Shown in pieces: positions 2,082-51,772 of a stretch of DNA of 64,000 bases. A model generated the notes under the pieces. It worked only from the letters and a program-made list of their open reading frames with translations, did not search any database and was not told the DNA's origin. Position 1 is the stretch's first letter; every line of letters begins with the position of its first letter. The DNA comes from Phytopseudomonas punonensis (GTDB taxonomy: Bacteria > Pseudomonadota > Gammaproteobacteria > Pseudomonadales > Pseudomonadaceae): contig NZ_FRBQ01000010.1 in assembly GCF_900142655.1 (NCBI RefSeq), positions 62,001 through 126,000 on the forward strand, read 5' to 3'. The position numbers and the translations under genes were made by a program.

Positions 2082-4091
2082 TCAGCGCTTGAGCATGGCG
2101 CGCATGCTGGCCAGGGCGTCGTTACCGCGGGCAGCTTTGACTTCCACGGGGGCCTCTTCCATGCCTTCCCACACCAGATCTTCGGGCGGTAGTTCGTTGA
2201 GGAAGCGGCTCGGCGAACAGTCAATGATCTCGCCGTACTGCTTGCGCTTGGCGGCAAAGGTCAGCGCCAGGTTGCGCTTGGCGCGGGTGATGCCCACGTA
2301 GGCCAAGCGGCGCTCTTCCTCGATGGTGTCGGCTTCGATGCTGGAGCGGTGCGGCAGGATCTCCTCCTCGAAACCGATGATGTACACCGACGGAAACTCC
2401 AGGCCTTTGGAGGCGTGCATGGTCATCATCTGCACACCTTCGGCGCCATCTTCCTCTTCCTGCTGGCGCTCGAGCATGTCGCGCAGCACCAGCTTGCCGA
2501 TGGCGTCCTCGATGGTCATGTCGCCTTCCTCGTCCTTGTCGAGGGTGTTCTTCAGCGCATCGACGAGGAACCACACGTTGCCCATGCGCGCATCGGCAAC
2601 CTTGTCGCTGGAGGCGTTCTGGCGCAGCCAGTTCTCGTAGTCGATATCCATGACCATGCTGCGGATCGCGGCGATCGGCTCGTTGACCACGCACTGCTCG
2701 CGCACGCCGTCCATCCAGCGTTTGAAGCGCGCCAGGCGCTCGGTGTAGCGGCTGTCGAGGTGAGCGCCGAGGCCGATTTCGTCGCTGGCAGCGTACATGC
2801 TGATCTTGCGCTCGTTGGCGTAGTTGCCGAGCTTTTCCAGGGTGGTCGAGCCGATCTCCCGGCGCGGTACGTTGATTACACGCAGGAAGGCGTTGTCGTC
2901 ATCCGGGTTGACCAGCAGGCGGAAGTAGCTCATCAGGTCTTTCACTTCCTGGCGGGCGAAGAAGCTGGTGCCGCCGCTCAGGCGATAGGGAATCTGGTGG
3001 TGCTGCAGTTTCAGCTCCATCAGCTTGGCCTGGTAGTTGCCGCGATAGAGGATGGCGAACTCGCTGTACGGGCGCTGGGTGCGCAGGTGCTCGGTGAGAA
3101 TTTCCAGCGCCACGCGCTCGCACTCGGCGTCTTCGTTGCGCGTGCGGATCACGCGGATCTCGTCGCCCATGCCCATCTCGCTCCACAGCTGCTTCTCGAA
3201 GGCGTGGGGGTTGTTGGCGATCAGGGTGTTAGCGCACTTGAGGATGCGGCTGGTGGAGCGGTAGTTCTGCTCGAGCATCACCACCTTCAGTGACGGGTAA
3301 TCCTCCTTGAGCAGGTTGAGGTTTTCCGGGCGTGCGCCGCGCCAGGCGTAGATCGACTGGTCGTCGTCGCCTACCACGGTGATCTGGTTGCGCATGCCTA
3401 CCAGCAGTTTCACCAGCAGATACTGGCTGGAGTTGGTGTCCTGGTATTCGTCGACGAGCAGATAACGGATGCGGTTCTGCCACTTCTCCAGAATGTCGCT
3501 GTGTTCCTGGAACAGCTTCACCGGCAGCAGGATCAGGTCGTTGAAGTCCACCGCGTTGTACGCCTTGAGCGTGCGCTGGTAGTGCAGGTAGACGATGGCG
3601 GCGGTCTGTTCCTTGGGGTTGCGCGCGTTGGCCAGCGCCTCGTCGGGCAGAATCAGGTCGTTCTTCCAGCTGTCGATGTAGTTCTTGACCTCGTCAGCGC
3701 CATCATCGCCGGCGTATTCCTTCTGCATGATGTCGGTGAGCAGCGCCTTGATGTCGCCGTCATCGAAGATCGAGAAGCCGGGCTTGTAGCCCAGGCGCGC
3801 GTATTCCTTGCGGATGATGTTCATGCCCAGGTTGTGGAAGGTCGACACCGTCAGGCCGCGGGCTTCGGGGCCCTTGAGCAAGCTGCCGACACGCTCCTTC
3901 ATCTCGCGCGCGGCCTTGTTGGTAAAGGTCATGGCGACGATGTGCTGGGCACGGATGCCGCAGTTCTGCACCAGGTGGGCGATCTTGCGGGTGATCACGC
4001 TGGTCTTGCCGGAGCCTGCACCGGCGAGCACCAAAAGAGGGCCGCCGACGTAGTTCACGGCTTCTTGTTGCCGGGGGTTGAGTCGGGACAT
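2082..4091 (-). CDS. rep: ATP-dependent DNA helicase Rep
   Basis: 669 residues, the usual length of Rep (superfamily 1A, UvrD/PcrA-like). It is a 3'-5' DNA helicase that helps the replisome pass protein roadblocks. Walker A is near residue 27 (LAGAGSGKTSV), motif II is LLVDEYQDTN, motif III GDDDQSIYAWRGA, motif IV near QNYRS, and motif VI is RRLAYVGITRAKRNL. The start ATG is followed by MSRLNPRQQEAV, as in known Rep proteins. The gene is single, with a hairpin and a repeat downstream and a divergent c-di-GMP gene upstream. Confidence 0.97.
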   Translation of the reverse strand: MSRLNPRQQEAVNYVGGPLLVLAGAGSGKTSVITRKIAHLVQNCGIRAQHIVAMTFTNKAAREMKERVGSLLKGPEARGLTVSTFHNLGMNIIRKEYARLGYKPGFSIFDDGDIKALLTDIMQKEYAGDDGADEVKNYIDSWKNDLILPDEALANARNPKEQTAAIVYLHYQRTLKAYNAVDFNDLILLPVKLFQEHSDILEKWQNRIRYLLVDEYQDTNSSQYLLVKLLVGMRNQITVVGDDDQSIYAWRGARPENLNLLKEDYPSLKVVMLEQNYRSTSRILKCANTLIANNPHAFEKQLWSEMGMGDEIRVIRTRNEDAECERVALEILTEHLRTQRPYSEFAILYRGNYQAKLMELKLQHHQIPYRLSGGTSFFARQEVKDLMSYFRLLVNPDDDNAFLRVINVPRREIGSTTLEKLGNYANERKISMYAASDEIGLGAHLDSRYTERLARFKRWMDGVREQCVVNEPIAAIRSMVMDIDYENWLRQNASSDKVADARMGNVWFLVDALKNTLDKDEEGDMTIEDAIGKLVLRDMLERQQEEEDGAEGVQMMTMHASKGLEFPSVYIIGFEEEILPHRSSIEADTIEEERRLAYVGITRAKRNLALTFAAKRKQYGEIIDCSPSRFLNELPPEDLVWEGMEEAPVEVKAARGNDALASMRAMLKR

Positions 4092-46179: not shown

Positions 46180-46466
46180 TGGCCGGTCGACAACACGCGG
46201 TGGCCACCGTGCAGGTGGATAACGACGAAGTGATCGTCACCGAGTGGCGCTTCGTACCCGGTGCTGAAACCGGCCGCCACCGCCATGGCTACGACTATGT
46301 GGTGGTGCCGATGACCGACGGCACCCTGCTGCTGGAAACCGCGGACGGTGACAAGCACGCGACGCTGGTCGCCGGGCAGAGCTACTTCCGCAAGGCGGGC
46401 GTCGAGCACAACGTGGTCAACGCCAGCGACCACGAAGTGGTCTTCGTCGAAACCGAACTCAAGTGA
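46179..46466 (+). CDS. bauB: Small cupin protein BauB
   Basis: 95 residues, a single cupin domain: [21 protein letters not shown] holds two of the metal-binding His, and [17 protein letters not shown] the third. Its ATG overlaps the bauA stop by one base. The exact step is not known; position and size equal bauB (PA0131) from memory. It lies 67 bases before bauC on the same transcript. Confidence 0.85.
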
Positions 46467-46533
46467 CCACCCCATTTCCTGCGGCAGCGGCCTGCATCGC
46501 TGCCGCCCAAGCGAACAGCATTCGGAGGACTCA

Positions 46534-48033
46534 ATGACCACCATCCAGCACCTGATCCATGGCCAACTCACCGACGGCCAGGGCGGCCGCAGCGCCGACG
46601 TGTTCAACCCGGCCACCGGCGAAGCGATTCGCCGCGTCGCCCTGGCCGACGTGGCCACCGTGCAGCAGGCCATCGACTCGGCCAAAGAGGCCTTTCCGGC
46701 CTGGCGCAACACGCCGCCGGCCAAGCGCGCCCAGGTGATGTTCCGCTTCAAGCAACTGCTCGAGCAGCACGAAGAAGCCATCGCCAAGCTGATTGCCGAA
46801 GAGCACGGCAAGACCCTCGAAGACGCCGCCGGTGAGCTCAAGCGCGGTATCGAGAACGTCGAATACGCCTGCTCGGCACCGGAGATTCTCAAGGGTGAAT
46901 ACACTCGCAACGTCGGCCCCAACATTGACGCCTGGAGCGACTTTCAGCCGGTCGGCGTGGTCGCCGGCATCACCCCGTTCAACTTCCCGGCCATGGTGCC
47001 GCTGTGGATGTACCCGCTGGCCATCGTCTGCGGCAACTGCTTCATTCTCAAGCCGTCCGAGCGCGACCCCAGCTCCACCCTGTACATCGCCCAACTGCTG
47101 CATGAAGCCGGCCTACCCGCAGGCGTGCTCAATGTGGTGCATGGCGACAAGACGGCGGTGGATGCGCTGATCCAGGCGCCGGAGGTCAAGGCCCTGAGCT
47201 TCGTCGGCTCCACGCCGATCGCCGAATACATCTACGCCGAAGGCAGCAAGCACGGCAAACGCGTGCAGGCCCTGGGCGGCGCCAAGAACCACGCAGTGCT
47301 GATGCCCGACGCCGACCTGGATAACGCCGTCAGCGCATTGATGGGCGCCGCCTACGGTTCCTGCGGCGAGCGCTGCATGGCCATTTCGGTGGCCGTGTGC
47401 GTGGGCGACCAGATCGCCGATGCCCTGGTCGAGCGCATCGTCCCGCAGATCAAGGCCCTGAAGATCGGCGCCGGCACCCAGTGCGGCCTGGACATGGGTC
47501 CGCTGGTTACCGCTGCAGCGAAGGACAAGGTCACCGGCTACATCGAGGCTGGCGTGGCTGCTGGCGCTCAACTGGTGGTCGACGGTCGCGGCCTGAGCGT
47601 TTCCGGCAATGAAAGCGGCTTTTTCCTCGGCGGCAGCCTGTTCGACCGGGTGACCGCGGACATGAGCATCTACACCAACGAGATCTTCGGCCCGGTGCTG
47701 TGCATCGTCCGTGTGGACAGCCTGGAAACCGCCATGAAGCTGATCAACGACCACGAGTACGGCAACGGCACCTGCATCTTCACCCGCGATGGCGAAGCGG
47801 CGCGGCTGTTCTGCGACGAGATCGAAGTGGGCATGGTCGGCGTCAACGTGCCGCTGCCGGTGCCGGTGGCCTACCACAGCTTCGGCGGCTGGAAGCGCTC
47901 GCTGTTCGGTGACCTGCACGCCTACGGCCCGGACGGCGTGCGTTTCTACACCCGCCGCAAGTCGATCACCCAGCGCTGGCCGCAGCGCAAGACCCACGAG
48001 GCGGCGCAGTTTGCGTTTCCCAGCAATAGCTGA
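46534..48033 (+). CDS. bauC: (Methyl)malonate-semialdehyde dehydrogenase (CoA-acylating)
   Basis: 499 residues, ATG 7 bases after CGGAGGA. The catalytic Cys is in [12 protein letters not shown] and the substrate-binding [23 protein letters not shown] is typical of MmsA/BauC. It oxidises malonate semialdehyde to acetyl-CoA, releasing CO2. Its place after bauA and bauB makes the 3-oxopropanoate role more likely than valine catabolism, though mmsA is a near relative. The bauD transporter gene that follows in PAO1 is absent here. A terminator follows directly. Confidence 0.93.
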
Positions 48034-48187: not shown

Positions 48188-48269
48188 TATCGGCAGCGAC
48201 ACATGGTTTGCGGTTGGGTACCGCACTCCGGCGCCGCCCATCTATCGCCTGAAAAACCGGTTTCGCCCT

Positions 48270-48500
48270 TACGGCGACTCACTTTTTTCAAACGCCGGAA
48301 GGCCGGCCCCGCAAAAAAGTAAGCAAAAACGCTGTGCCCCTGCATCCGGAACTAGGCGTCCCGACTCGCTACGCTCGACTCCCCTCACTCCATCATTGCT
48401 CCGAGGGCCCGCCGCGAAGGGCCATCCCTGGCCCATCGCGGCTCTCGCGGCATCCATGCCGCTCAAGGCTGCCCGCCCGGCCCTCTACACAACGATTTCG
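48270..48500. repeat. Folded Pseudomonas intergenic repeat
   Basis: This gene-free stretch is the sort of long intergenic repeat I recall from many pseudomonads. ACTTTTTT (48281-48288) is inverted as AAAAAAGT (48313-48320), and CCGCGA..GGGCCA with TGGCCC..TCGCGG (48412-48441) gives a 12-bp stem broken by one A-A mismatch around loop TCCC. Open frames across it show no domain and look spurious. It forms the left border of the GC-poor island. Confidence 0.55.
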
Positions 48501-48579
48501 TTCGGCCTTCTGAAGGGGCGATTGGAGTACGACTCATACACCGCGTGGAGTTCTTGCGGGCCAAGTTTTAATAATTGAT

Positions 48580-50400
48580 TTACTTGCTAAGAGGGCCAGA
48601 TGTATTAGTGAATTTTGCAACGCCGTCTTTGGCGTCTAGGAGAAAGAATTTGCTTCTGAAATAGCTGCGATAGCTGAATGTTTCTATCAGGTTTGAAGAA
48701 TCTGATGTGGTCTTGTTCTTTTTGCTAGTAAAATTTGGGTACTTTTTCTTTAAGTTGTTTTCTAAGTCGGTCCAGATTTCATTTATATGGTCTAGATCCT
48801 GTTCGCTGATGTTTGTTCTATCACCAAGCAATAGCGTGCCTATGTAAATTTTTGCATACTGTGTTTGGCTTACCTTGGTGTTTTTTCTTTTTGTAGATGT
48901 TAGTGCTTCATATAGTTTGTACGCGTTAGGGACTCTCTTTATTACTATGGTGTCTTGCTCGTTTAGTTCTTGTAGTTCACTTCGTTGGAATAGCCTTTTT
49001 TGGTTTGTTAGTTCTATTAATCCTTTGCAGCAATAGAAAAGTCTGAAGAACAGGTTTCTTTCGATTATTTGTTGCTCAGATATATATTTGTTATGGAGTC
49101 CGTCAGCGAATTCGCCTCGCTTTCGTTCGTAAAGTAGGCCGCTTTCTTCAAAAAGCACCGATTGGATCTTTTTATGGATTGTGTCGTTGGCTAGTTTGTC
49201 AGCAGTGATTACGGGTGTTTGTTTGTTAGTTGCGTTTGAGATTTCATCTATTAGCTGAAGTTTGGCTTGAGTGTCTGTGTTTGTTACTAGTGTAATTACT
49301 TTTAGCAAGATTTCTTTGTTGTTAAATACAGTTAAGTCTCCTGACTCTTTCTGTTCTTCATAAATCTTGCTTAGAGTATAAGATGTTTGGCCTCCGTTAA
49401 TTATTTGTGGGTTCTTTATTAGGAGTTGTGCTTGGTACTTGATGCCTACTTTCTCGTTTATACTGGTTTCGTCGGATATTATTGTGATTCCGTTGTTGAA
49501 TAAGGCCAGTTCATTGGTTGATGTTTTTTCAATAGTGTTTCTGATGGCTGTATTTACCTGTTGCCCTTCAAGCTCTAAGTGACTTCTTGGGTTGAATTGC
49601 AAAATTGAGTTTTTGTACTTGCTCATTACTTTGGCTATTTCAATTGCGGGTACGAATAAAACAGTTATCTCGCAGTCGTTTGCTTTTGTTGTGACGGTGT
49701 AGCTGATTTTTGTGCCTGAGCTTTTGTTCGAAATGTCGACCGGTATTGTTATTTCGGAGGCAGCAAAATAATTTCCAGACACTACTGGAAAAACAAGTTT
49801 CTCATAGCTTTTCTTAAAATCAAATACCTCGGCGTTATATCCGCCTGTTAAATTCCTTATTTTTTGGCTTGAAACTCCATTTAGATTTGCCAAGATTACA
49901 ATTCTATACTTGTATCTTGCTATGTCATCAATTCTCCCTATTTCTCTCTGTAGTTGTTTTATCTTGCCGTTGTATTCGTTTTGTTCTTCGTCGTGGGTTT
50001 CTCCGTCCAGTATTCGATCAATGTCCATTTGTAGTATTTCTGAAAGAGCTATTTCTTTGGTTTCGAAATTTTTGTTAGTTGTTCTGAATTTTGACTGAAT
50101 TAAGAATATCTGCTTTGTCTCTTTATCTATGTAGTATGCGTCAATGCCGCCGTCATATGAATCGTCTGTAATCCATCTTTCTCGCTCGCTAAAATCAGTT
50201 ATCCCAAACATTACCTTTAGAAAGAGGTGTATGTATGCTCGTGCGCGCGCATTATTTAGGCGATCTTCTTCTGCCTCGGATGGCGTGTATCGCTTGTGTC
50301 CCGAAACTCTGGATTCTTCGCGAATTGTGTCAAGAATTTTGATTAATATTTCGTATTTTTCTTTAGGGGTATGTGCGTGTGTGCTCTCGTTGTTTTTCAC
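48580..50400 (-). CDS. AIPR-family protein with Mrr-like nuclease motif (putative phage defence)
   Basis: 606 residues from GTG at 50400; AGGA lies 11 bases upstream. Residues 76-104 carry a PD-(D/E)XK/Mrr-like site: Asp87 in DGGIDAYY, then Gln102-Ser-Lys104 in LIQSKFR. Residues 260-450 are the AIPR (abortive infection phage resistance) domain, seen in RSHLELEGQQVN, NELALFNNGITII and NPQIINGGQTSYTL. The expected role is nucleic-acid cleavage on phage attack. The gene is strikingly GC-poor (22 of 60 bases G or C in 49021-49080), so it was probably acquired. It stands alone; no methylase or second toxin component lies beside it. Confidence 0.88.
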   Translation of the reverse strand: MKNNESTHAHTPKEKYEILIKILDTIREESRVSGHKRYTPSEAEEDRLNNARARAYIHLFLKVMFGITDFSERERWITDDSYDGGIDAYYIDKETKQIFLIQSKFRTTNKNFETKEIALSEILQMDIDRILDGETHDEEQNEYNGKIKQLQREIGRIDDIARYKYRIVILANLNGVSSQKIRNLTGGYNAEVFDFKKSYEKLVFPVVSGNYFAASEITIPVDISNKSSGTKISYTVTTKANDCEITVLFVPAIEIAKVMSKYKNSILQFNPRSHLELEGQQVNTAIRNTIEKTSTNELALFNNGITIISDETSINEKVGIKYQAQLLIKNPQIINGGQTSYTLSKIYEEQKESGDLTVFNNKEILLKVITLVTNTDTQAKLQLIDEISNATNKQTPVITADKLANDTIHKKIQSVLFEESGLLYERKRGEFADGLHNKYISEQQIIERNLFFRLFYCCKGLIELTNQKRLFQRSELQELNEQDTIVIKRVPNAYKLYEALTSTKRKNTKVSQTQYAKIYIGTLLLGDRTNISEQDLDHINEIWTDLENNLKKKYPNFTSKKNKTTSDSSNLIETFSYRSYFRSKFFLLDAKDGVAKFTNTSGPLSK

Positions 50401-50535
50401 GTTTTGGATATTCCTGATTTTATTTTATATAGTAGTGGCTTGGCTCGATATTGCTAAGCTGCAATCAAATTTTCTAGCCGAGCGCCATCTTGAGTTGCGG
50501 AGCTATTTTTTAAGTTCTTATTTAATCGAAAACTC
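50401..50535. other. GC-poor upstream region of the AIPR gene
   Basis: This AT-rich stretch contains TATATAAAAT-like sequences on the minus strand that could hold the AIPR promoter, but no convincing -35/-10 pair. It joins the island to the broken NYN gene. Confidence 0.4.
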
Positions 50536-50646
50536 GTTTAACGTGAATGTCCTTGAGGAGGCCTTCAACGGCGGCAGCGCATTGTCGGCGTCGATGAGGA
50601 CGGCGAGGTGCTTTTGATGAGCGGCAGGCGCGTTCTTGCTGGCCAT
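50536..50646 (-). pseudogene. Broken 5' end of a NYN-domain (LabA-like) gene
   Basis: From the ATG at 50646, with AAGGAAG 5 bases upstream, the frame reads MASKNAPAAHQKHLAVLIDADNA, the start of NYN-domain RNases. One base is missing near 50580: the next frame then continues AAAVEGLLKDI, as the family requires. Similarity ends near 50541, at the border of the GC-poor island, and no downstream part of the gene is present. It is thus frameshifted and truncated. Confidence 0.7.
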
Positions 50647-50860
50647 GGTTCTTCCTTGAGAGGCGATGGCCGACCTTACTGCGAAATGCTGGCGGTGCGC
50701 CACCAGGTGTGGATGGCTTTTAGTCGCATGGGCGAACTCGCCGCCAGAACAGAGCAGCTATTTGCGCCAAAACGCGCAACAAAACATTGCGCGTTAGTCT
50801 GTATTTCGAACCTATCCGTCTCTCTATGATGGCTCGCACTTTCCCTTGCGAGGCCATGCC

Positions 50861-51772
50861 ATGAAAGCTCTCCGTCTGTTACGTCCTTTGTTGTTAGGCA
50901 GTGCCGTGCTGGCCGTGGCCGGTCAGGTGCTGGCGGCTGAGCCGCTCAAGCTGGAGGTGTATAACCCCGGTGCCAAGTCGATTTTCCCGGTGTCAGCGCA
51001 GATCGTGTCTGGGCCTACCGAGGCGGTGCTGATCGATGCGCAGTTCCAGCGTGACGATGCCCAGGCGCTGGTCGAGAAGGTGCGCGCTACCGGCAATAAG
51101 CTGACCACCGTATATATCAGCCACAGCGACCCGGATTATTACTTCGGGCTGGATGTGATCCACCGCGCCTTCCCGGACGCGAAGATCGTCGCCACTGCCG
51201 AGACGGTGGCTGCCATCGAGGCGAGCAAGGACGGCAAGCTGGCTCACTGGGGGCCGATCATGGAGGGCAATGCGCCGGCGGCGCTGGTGGTGCCCGAAGC
51301 GCTGAAGGCGCCGAAGCTGATCGTGGATGGTCAGGTGCTGGAGATTCGCGGGCCGGAGCCGGCGCGTACCTTCGTGTGGATTACGTCGCTGAAGACGGTG
51401 GTCGGCGGCATCCCGGTGTCGGCGAATATTCATGTGTGGATGGCCGATACCCAGACTGTGCAATCGCGCCGCGACTGGCTGGCTACGCTGGCGGCCATCG
51501 AGGCGTTGAAGCCGAGCCGCGTGGTGCCCGGTCATTACCTGGCCAACGCCGATGGTAGCCTGCCGGATTCGCCGCAGACCGTCGCCGCAACCCGCGAGTA
51601 CCTGCAGGCGTTCGAGGAGGAGGCCGGCAAGGCCAAGGATTCGGCGCAGCTGATCACCGCCATGCGCAAGCGCTACCCGAACCTGGCCGATGAGTCGTCC
51701 CTGGAGCTGAGTGCCCAGGTGATCAAGGGCGAGGTGAAGTGGCCGCAACGGGCATCGTCCTGGCAGCGCTGA
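50861..51772 (+). CDS. Exported metallo-beta-lactamase-fold protein with altered metal site
   Basis: 303 residues from MKALRLLRPLLLGSAVLAVAGQVLAAEPL; the ATG at 50861 follows GCGAGG, and an in-frame ATG at 50846 is less likely. The signal peptide ends near residue 25. The MBL fold is seen in EAVLIDAQFQRDDA and VVPGHYL, but the HxHxDH metal motif reads HSDPDY: the first His and the Asp remain while two His are replaced by Asp and Tyr. It may bind one metal or none. Substrate unknown. Confidence 0.82.
   Translation: MKALRLLRPLLLGSAVLAVAGQVLAAEPLKLEVYNPGAKSIFPVSAQIVSGPTEAVLIDAQFQRDDAQALVEKVRATGNKLTTVYISHSDPDYYFGLDVIHRAFPDAKIVATAETVAAIEASKDGKLAHWGPIMEGNAPAALVVPEALKAPKLIVDGQVLEIRGPEPARTFVWITSLKTVVGGIPVSANIHVWMADTQTVQSRRDWLATLAAIEALKPSRVVPGHYLANADGSLPDSPQTVAATREYLQAFEEEAGKAKDSAQLITAMRKRYPNLADESSLELSAQVIKGEVKWPQRASSWQR

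Follow-up and report, generated by a model that had tools for sequence, protein, structure and literature searches.

The window analyzed here, a stretch of 64,000 nucleotides from Phytopseudomonas punonensis, carries the 5' stub of a gene with NYN and OST-HTH domains next to an AT-rich AIPR gene. Judging from the sequence comparisons, we consider it likely (probability of roughly 0.7) that the stub is the remnant of such a gene at a site where defence-like genes are exchanged, the cargo being swapped by recombination in the flanks and read from the NYN promoter. The site would be bounded by the mmsA end of the beta-alanine operon and by the region upstream of NYN. Incoming DNA would recombine with conserved flanks, that is, the NYN start and the DNA upstream of it on one side, and a dispersed repeat with mmsA on the other, so that no integrase would be needed for swapping the cargo. 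The cargo would then be transcribed from the NYN promoter and leader, which are retained.

A truncated NYN gene beside the AIPR gene

The features of the locus are listed in Table 1. The start codon of the stub is at 50646-50644 of the minus strand, directly preceded by a ribosome site AAGGA. The reading frame, MASKNAPAAHQKHLAVLIDADNA, is then shifted, so that AAAVEGLLKDI is read in another frame, and the in-frame stop is at 50520-50518. Homology to relatives ends near 50545, where the GC content falls from 0.56-0.59 to 0.37-0.39 in 500-base windows. The initial annotation had described a fragment with start codon, ribosome site, the first 23 NYN residues, a frameshift, and an end at the GC-poor DNA, and all these features were recovered, the shift corresponding in an alignment with four relatives to a net loss of four bases after codon 23.

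Table 1. Features of the AIPR locus in the window
Feature	Positions	Strand	Remarks
mmsA (aldehyde dehydrogenase family), conserved left flank	46459..48033	+	
Dispersed repeat just beyond the 3' end of the cargo	48240..48525	+	nine places in the genome at E <= 1e-10, own included
Stretch unaligned with G001 (~80 other bases there)	48519..50751	.	contains AIPR gene, stub, NYN upstream block
AIPR cargo gene, 606 aa, GC 0.38, GTG start	48580..50400	-	PF10592, E 1.3e-32; PADLOC AbiU, 7e-24
AT-rich leader, stub to AIPR start	50401..50544	-	no terminator-like or sigma-70-like consensus match on the AIPR strand
5' stub of NYN + OST-HTH gene	50545..50646	-	~23 codons in frame, then shifted; homology gone near 50545
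Conserved block before NYN start (TGGCGC..GCCA..CGCAGTAAGGTCG..CAAGGA)	50647..50704	-	putative promoter and leader
Metallo-beta-lactamase-fold (MBL) gene, right flank conserved in the window clade	50861..51772	+	

The stub together with its upstream DNA is 89-91% identical to sequences of four relatives (G418, G168, G185, and G414; E 2.8e-72 to 4.9e-56), the homology reaching 58 bases upstream of the start codon, while the best other match in its own genome is no better than E 0.7; on both counts we rejected a chance resemblance. With ~23 codons in frame the window copy does not encode a complete NYN domain, and Pfam yielded no match for the stub alone. The full orthologue in genome G027 matches NYN (PF01936, E 3.6e-39) and OST-HTH (PF12872, E 1.4e-16), the latter part being absent from the stub. 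Two further NYN-domain genes are present in the P. punonensis genome, and nothing in it matches the full NYN and OST-HTH protein at E <= 1e-10.

The AIPR protein scores 114 bits against PF10592 (cut-off 25), placing it in the AIPR/AbiU family. Among 398 genomes of the genus its own genome is the sole carrier, as no homologues at E <= 1e-30 were found in the other 397, and a search of genome contigs confirmed no further copy. All plasmid relatives are below 60% identity, the best one, from Sinorhizobium, being at 41%. With no other copy in the genus and only distant plasmid relatives, the protein was unproductive as a pointer to donors. Its N-terminal segment GIDAYY...IFLIQSK presumably resembles a PD-(D/E)xK nuclease motif.

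Intact NYN genes at the same place in close relatives

Five relatives share five flanking genes with the window at 90-94% identity. The check proposed in the initial annotation, a look for intact NYN in strains lacking the AIPR gene, was positive: in three of them (G168, G185, and G414) mmsA and the MBL gene are separated by a full NYN gene that runs antisense to the two, and none of the five has the AIPR gene within the stretch that was fetched. In G418, NYN is a different pseudogene with an altered start codon, of which only the first ~102 residues match. G001 has neither NYN nor AIPR here, and a distant NYN relative (45% identity) is located elsewhere in its genome.

The initial annotation had suggested that acquisition of the defence gene destroyed or replaced an NYN gene. 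Replacement agrees with the intact NYN genes at loci without AIPR. Destruction by the acquisition is doubtful, because G418 and G001 lost NYN without AIPR, and because the decayed segment 50540-50577 of the window lies beside a nearly unchanged upstream block.

Cargo between NYN and mmsA across the genus

To collect loci, 398 genomes of the genus were searched at the DNA level for the stub and at the protein level for the NYN orthologue. The stub search scored two candidates per genome and, starting at the 5' end, is blind to very early breaks; later breaks would have appeared in the protein search. All NYN matches at E <= 1e-80 were fetched, plus truncated and stub-only cases, with homologues above this threshold examined only where truncated (G418, G355, G319, and G253). 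The resulting first set comprises 76 NYN or stub loci, with mmsA within the fetched stretch in 33. The cargo analysis covers these 33 loci, chosen for that linkage, and G008, 34 in total. Cargo was defined as an ORF with GC below 0.50 and at least 130 aa, identified by a longest-ORF script and, in G008, counted within 6 kb. This criterion favours AT-rich genes by design, and ORFs below the length limit, such as a 92-aa opposite-strand ORF at L066, are uncounted. Shared descent was handled only by grouping cargo into families, and one full-length NYN in the counts, G377, carries an in-frame stop.

AT-rich cargo is present in 23 of the 34 loci, the other 11 having none. All 26 cargo ORFs are on the NYN strand (sign test over 19 hand-grouped cargo families, p 4e-6), and the first of them starts within 600 bp of NYN in 21 of the 23 cargo loci. 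An AT-rich ORF lies within 600 bp downstream of full-length NYN in 15/27 mmsA-linked loci compared with 4/39 elsewhere (p 9e-5), three of the latter four being on the same strand and one on the opposite strand. No AT-rich ORF was found within 600 bp upstream of NYN in the 76 loci of the first set or in 80 named loci. This named set, the best 80 of at least 555 relatives, contributed 56 new loci (those with no NYN stretch identical to one in the first set), 21 of them mmsA-linked. Seven of the 21 have AT-rich cargo, with 8/8 ORFs on the NYN strand, and the frequency of an AT-rich ORF within 600 bp was again higher at mmsA (5/21, compared with 1/35 of other new loci; p 0.02). The MBL gene serves as a flank in the window clade only.

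Five related genomes illustrate the exchange. Long flanking pieces in G198, G063, G223, G269, and G348 are 85-98% identical, with short pieces at the repeat at 73-77%, and the contents differ: no AT-rich cargo in G198, an HSDR_N gene in G063, HATPase in G223, a reverse transcriptase with SLATT in G269, and a 352-aa protein of unknown type in G348. Measured from the NYN start, homology to G198 extends to +760 in G063 and +745 in G223, where NYN is intact, and ends at +63 in G269 and +117 in G348, where NYN is a stub. It restarts at +872 to +1053 of G198, past the NYN end at ~+825. With different, mostly defence-like genes occupying the site in many genomes, the proposal that the locus is an exchange hotspot is well supported, as is the replacement reading.

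Stubs and their break points

A truncated NYN accompanies AT-rich cargo at six loci (the window, G008, G134, G175, G269, and G348). In all of them the region before the start codon is kept, ~21 N-terminal residues are recognisable, and the recognisable part of NYN does not go beyond codon ~40 of 270, except for a decayed trace to ~codon 50 in G269. Homology ends range from codon ~21 to ~39, and a single fixed attachment site within NYN was therefore rejected. Truncated NYN without AT-rich cargo was seen in G418 (codon ~102) and in G298, which has a stub of ~54 codons away from mmsA and no AT-rich same-strand cargo within 600 bp of it; ORFs farther on at that locus (L246) resemble a Tn7-like transposition set.

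Could the AIPR DNA have been inserted into the resident NYN of this very lineage, deleting its 3' part? G348 looks like such a case, as its NYN is cut cleanly at codon 39 directly before the cargo, with a flank 92% identical. In the window, however, 55-57 of 58 bases before the start are identical to those of four relatives compared with 22-24 of 38 after codon 23, and a fresh cut should leave both segments alike. A similar abrupt step is seen in G269, which matches its relatives nearly perfectly until ~codon 16-21 and drops sharply thereafter, as a recombination end point would. Insertion in place thus seems unlikely for the window; given the step in identity, the stub and the AIPR gene probably arrived together, as one ready-made piece.

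If NYN were simply dispensable and had decayed independently in several lineages, the neighbouring cargo would be a coincidence. The association between truncation and cargo at mmsA-linked loci is indeed not significant (5/6 truncated compared with 15/27 full-length, p 0.36), and in G418 and G001, where there is no AT-rich cargo, NYN is a pseudogene or lost. Yet all six cargo-linked truncations are early in the gene, and cargo is concentrated at mmsA-NYN loci, which makes independent decay improbable.

The recognisable N-terminus of all six stubs might also suggest a functional leader, i.e. a short peptide or an RNA regulating the downstream gene. A conserved in-frame short protein, which the initial annotation had named as the finding that would speak against it, was rejected: past ~codon 21 the stub ends differ, the sole similar pair being G008 and G134. 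Moreover, the stop of the window stub is more than 100 bases before the AIPR start, making translational coupling unlikely, and we see little prospect for a leader of this kind. In G008 and G134 the sequence shared past ~codon 23 is decayed and the cargo is different, which would fit an exchange behind an already existing stub.

The repeat edge and mmsA loci without NYN

On the other side of the slot, the dispersed repeat starts no more than 350 bp beyond the cargo in 16 of the 23 loci that carry any (in G008 as a 42-base match only), and in G198, which has no AT-rich cargo, it begins 61 bp past NYN. It is plausible that the repeat and mmsA constitute the second recombination arm.

As controls, 20 loci with mmsA and no NYN nearby were fetched. 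Five with less than 600 bases at contig ends were dropped, and of the 15 that were read, ten (two of them masked) look like mmsA beside an rRNA operon, leaving five usable. Two of the five carry defence-like cargo in the same orientation, a KAP NTPase in G130 and a 5'-nucleotidase in G187, with the repeat, not NYN, ~200 bases upstream of it. G208 and G141 have no AT-rich ORFs, and G041, with NYN elsewhere, has two ORFs of GC 0.48-0.49. The cargo of G130 and G187 means that neither NYN nor its promoter is needed everywhere.

In G187, the coding part of NYN is gone and the upstream block precedes a gene for a membrane protein that shares 93% identity over 104 residues with the product of the gene after NYN in G075. 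Two traces of this block were detected there (L148:4210-4267 and 3169-3237; nhmmer E ~1e-6), one of them placed before this membrane-protein gene in a way that would suggest a captured promoter.

The upstream block as a possible promoter

The motifs TGGCGC, GCCA, CGCAGTA, GGTC, and CAAGGA before the start are strongly conserved in 34 aligned loci, and DNA farther upstream is not. Within the window (50670-50702) and these loci, TGGCGC-N3-GCCA is followed by CGCAGTA, forming an inverted repeat in many of them, a possible operator or promoter element.

The arrangement of the loci fits a model in which the NYN promoter drives the cargo, as far as can be judged from sequence. The block may instead have been kept as a recombination arm that does not drive the cargo, the strand bias having another cause such as convergence with mmsA. 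The crossover-like step in G269 is what this would predict, as is the same-strand cargo of G130 and G187, directly preceded by the repeat rather than by NYN. It is less easily reconciled with the block itself, 55-56 of whose 58 bases are identical in G185 and G414 though only 20-23 of the next 57 bases upstream are, or with the NYN-cargo gaps, which measure 0-181 bp in 14 of 15 full-length loci. Nor does a terminator-like site separate NYN or its stub from the cargo in 20 of 21 loci, the exception being L102, with such a site and the dispersed repeat in the gap. We thus regard a mere recombination arm as somewhat unlikely. The gap between the stub and the AIPR gene yielded no sigma-70-like match on the AIPR strand, which counts for little, the scan being confined to this promoter type. 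Two relatives have lost NYN and yet show no AT-rich cargo, and at two loci there is cargo but no NYN, so that the order of events and the role of the promoter in the exchange reading are tentative.

Cargo families

For 13 of the 19 families of the first set (grouped by hand, with DUF2971 counted twice) there is a PADLOC match below 1e-5, some of these weak or partial; eight match below 1e-20, and six have no match below 1e-5. By Pfam and PADLOC, the cargo includes Mrr type IV restriction (L066), GmrSD (L080), a TIR-TM protein (L079), an OLD-like ATPase (L076), the reverse transcriptase UG17 with SLATT (L087), a protein kinase (L082), and HATPase (L085). Further families are the 5'-nucleotidase PDC-S08 (L100, and L101 as assigned by the sequence start), DUF2971 PDC-S31 (L083 and, weakly, L063), KAP PDC-S20 (L065), HSDR_N (L068, and by the sequence start L095, L096, and L098), PcfJ (L088), and a YecR-like lipoprotein (L097). 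In the named set, PADLOC identified DRT5 (E 1e-202), the PARIS pair AriA/AriB, PDC-S42, and a weak match to HEC-07.

Neither Pfam nor PADLOC assigned a confident defence family to the cargo of L077, L102, L105, and L141, and L188 and L199 of the named set had no match in either. The genes at L105:7918-8970, L141:7333-8391, L188:7786-9225, and L199:7190-7873 are candidate defence genes with no Pfam or confident PADLOC match. Scanned slot genes with GC of at least 0.50 (L069, L072, L075, and L106) had no defence match, L072 and L106 by Pfam only. The Pfam matches of the scanned slot proteins, which represent a part of the slot ORFs, included no integrase or transposase models; ORFs in L074, L078, L079, and L083 look like REP-associated transposases.

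Two further loci lie away from mmsA. In G415 (L134:5651-8883), a second NYN gene is followed on the same strand by a gene for a 424-aa protein and an AAA + PRTase-CE gene (PADLOC PRTase_III-A). In G190 (L108:6104-8644), an AT-rich gene for an 846-aa protein with Schlafen AlbA_2 and NB-ARC matches is located downstream of NYN on the same strand.

Comparison with known defence hotspots

Chromosomal defence hotspots are a known kind of locus. The core defence hotspots cDHS1 and cDHS2 of Pseudomonas aeruginosa, for which flank recombination has been suggested as one route (PMC10250203), resemble the mmsA-NYN site in having conserved flanks, variable defence content of lower GC, and no tie to a single mobile element. 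However, cDHS1 has other flanks and spans 1-224 kb (median 26 kb; PMC10250203), whereas the NYN-mmsA distance is 0.5-5.6 kb (33 loci). Unlike cDHS1 and cDHS2, the mmsA-NYN site mostly holds one cargo gene in one orientation, and its flanking gene can be reduced to the 5' end. The available part of that text does not mention NYN or mmsA. Modular defence content is also shared with the defence hotspots of Pseudomonas described in PMC12629846, but those are in genomic islands, and the accessible part of that source has no mention of NYN, mmsA, or a promoter. The intact gene has the two domains of the LK-nuclease/NYN and OST-HTH family, whose bacterial genes, according to the part of PMC2848206 available, are not found in conserved neighbourhoods with genes of other known RNA-processing systems; at the mmsA locus, it borders a slot for defence-like genes. 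A literature search of open-licence papers found no report of an mmsA-NYN exchange site. The unusual feature is that the slot is small and filled in one direction, and that its flanking gene is sacrificed.

Tentatively, this slot may be a polarised, integrase-free expression site. The start region of the RNase gene would serve both as a shared promoter and as a recombination handle, single phage-defence genes would be swapped behind it like cassettes, and the RNase gene, when replaced by a cassette, would be cut down to its promoter and first codons.

The interval from mmsA to the NYN start gives a short, recognisable address for finding single-gene defence systems in Pseudomonas, including cargo of no known family. 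If the promoter idea is true, the immediate expression of newly acquired defence genes would have an explanation, and the exchange of defence genes by plain homologous recombination would become testable.
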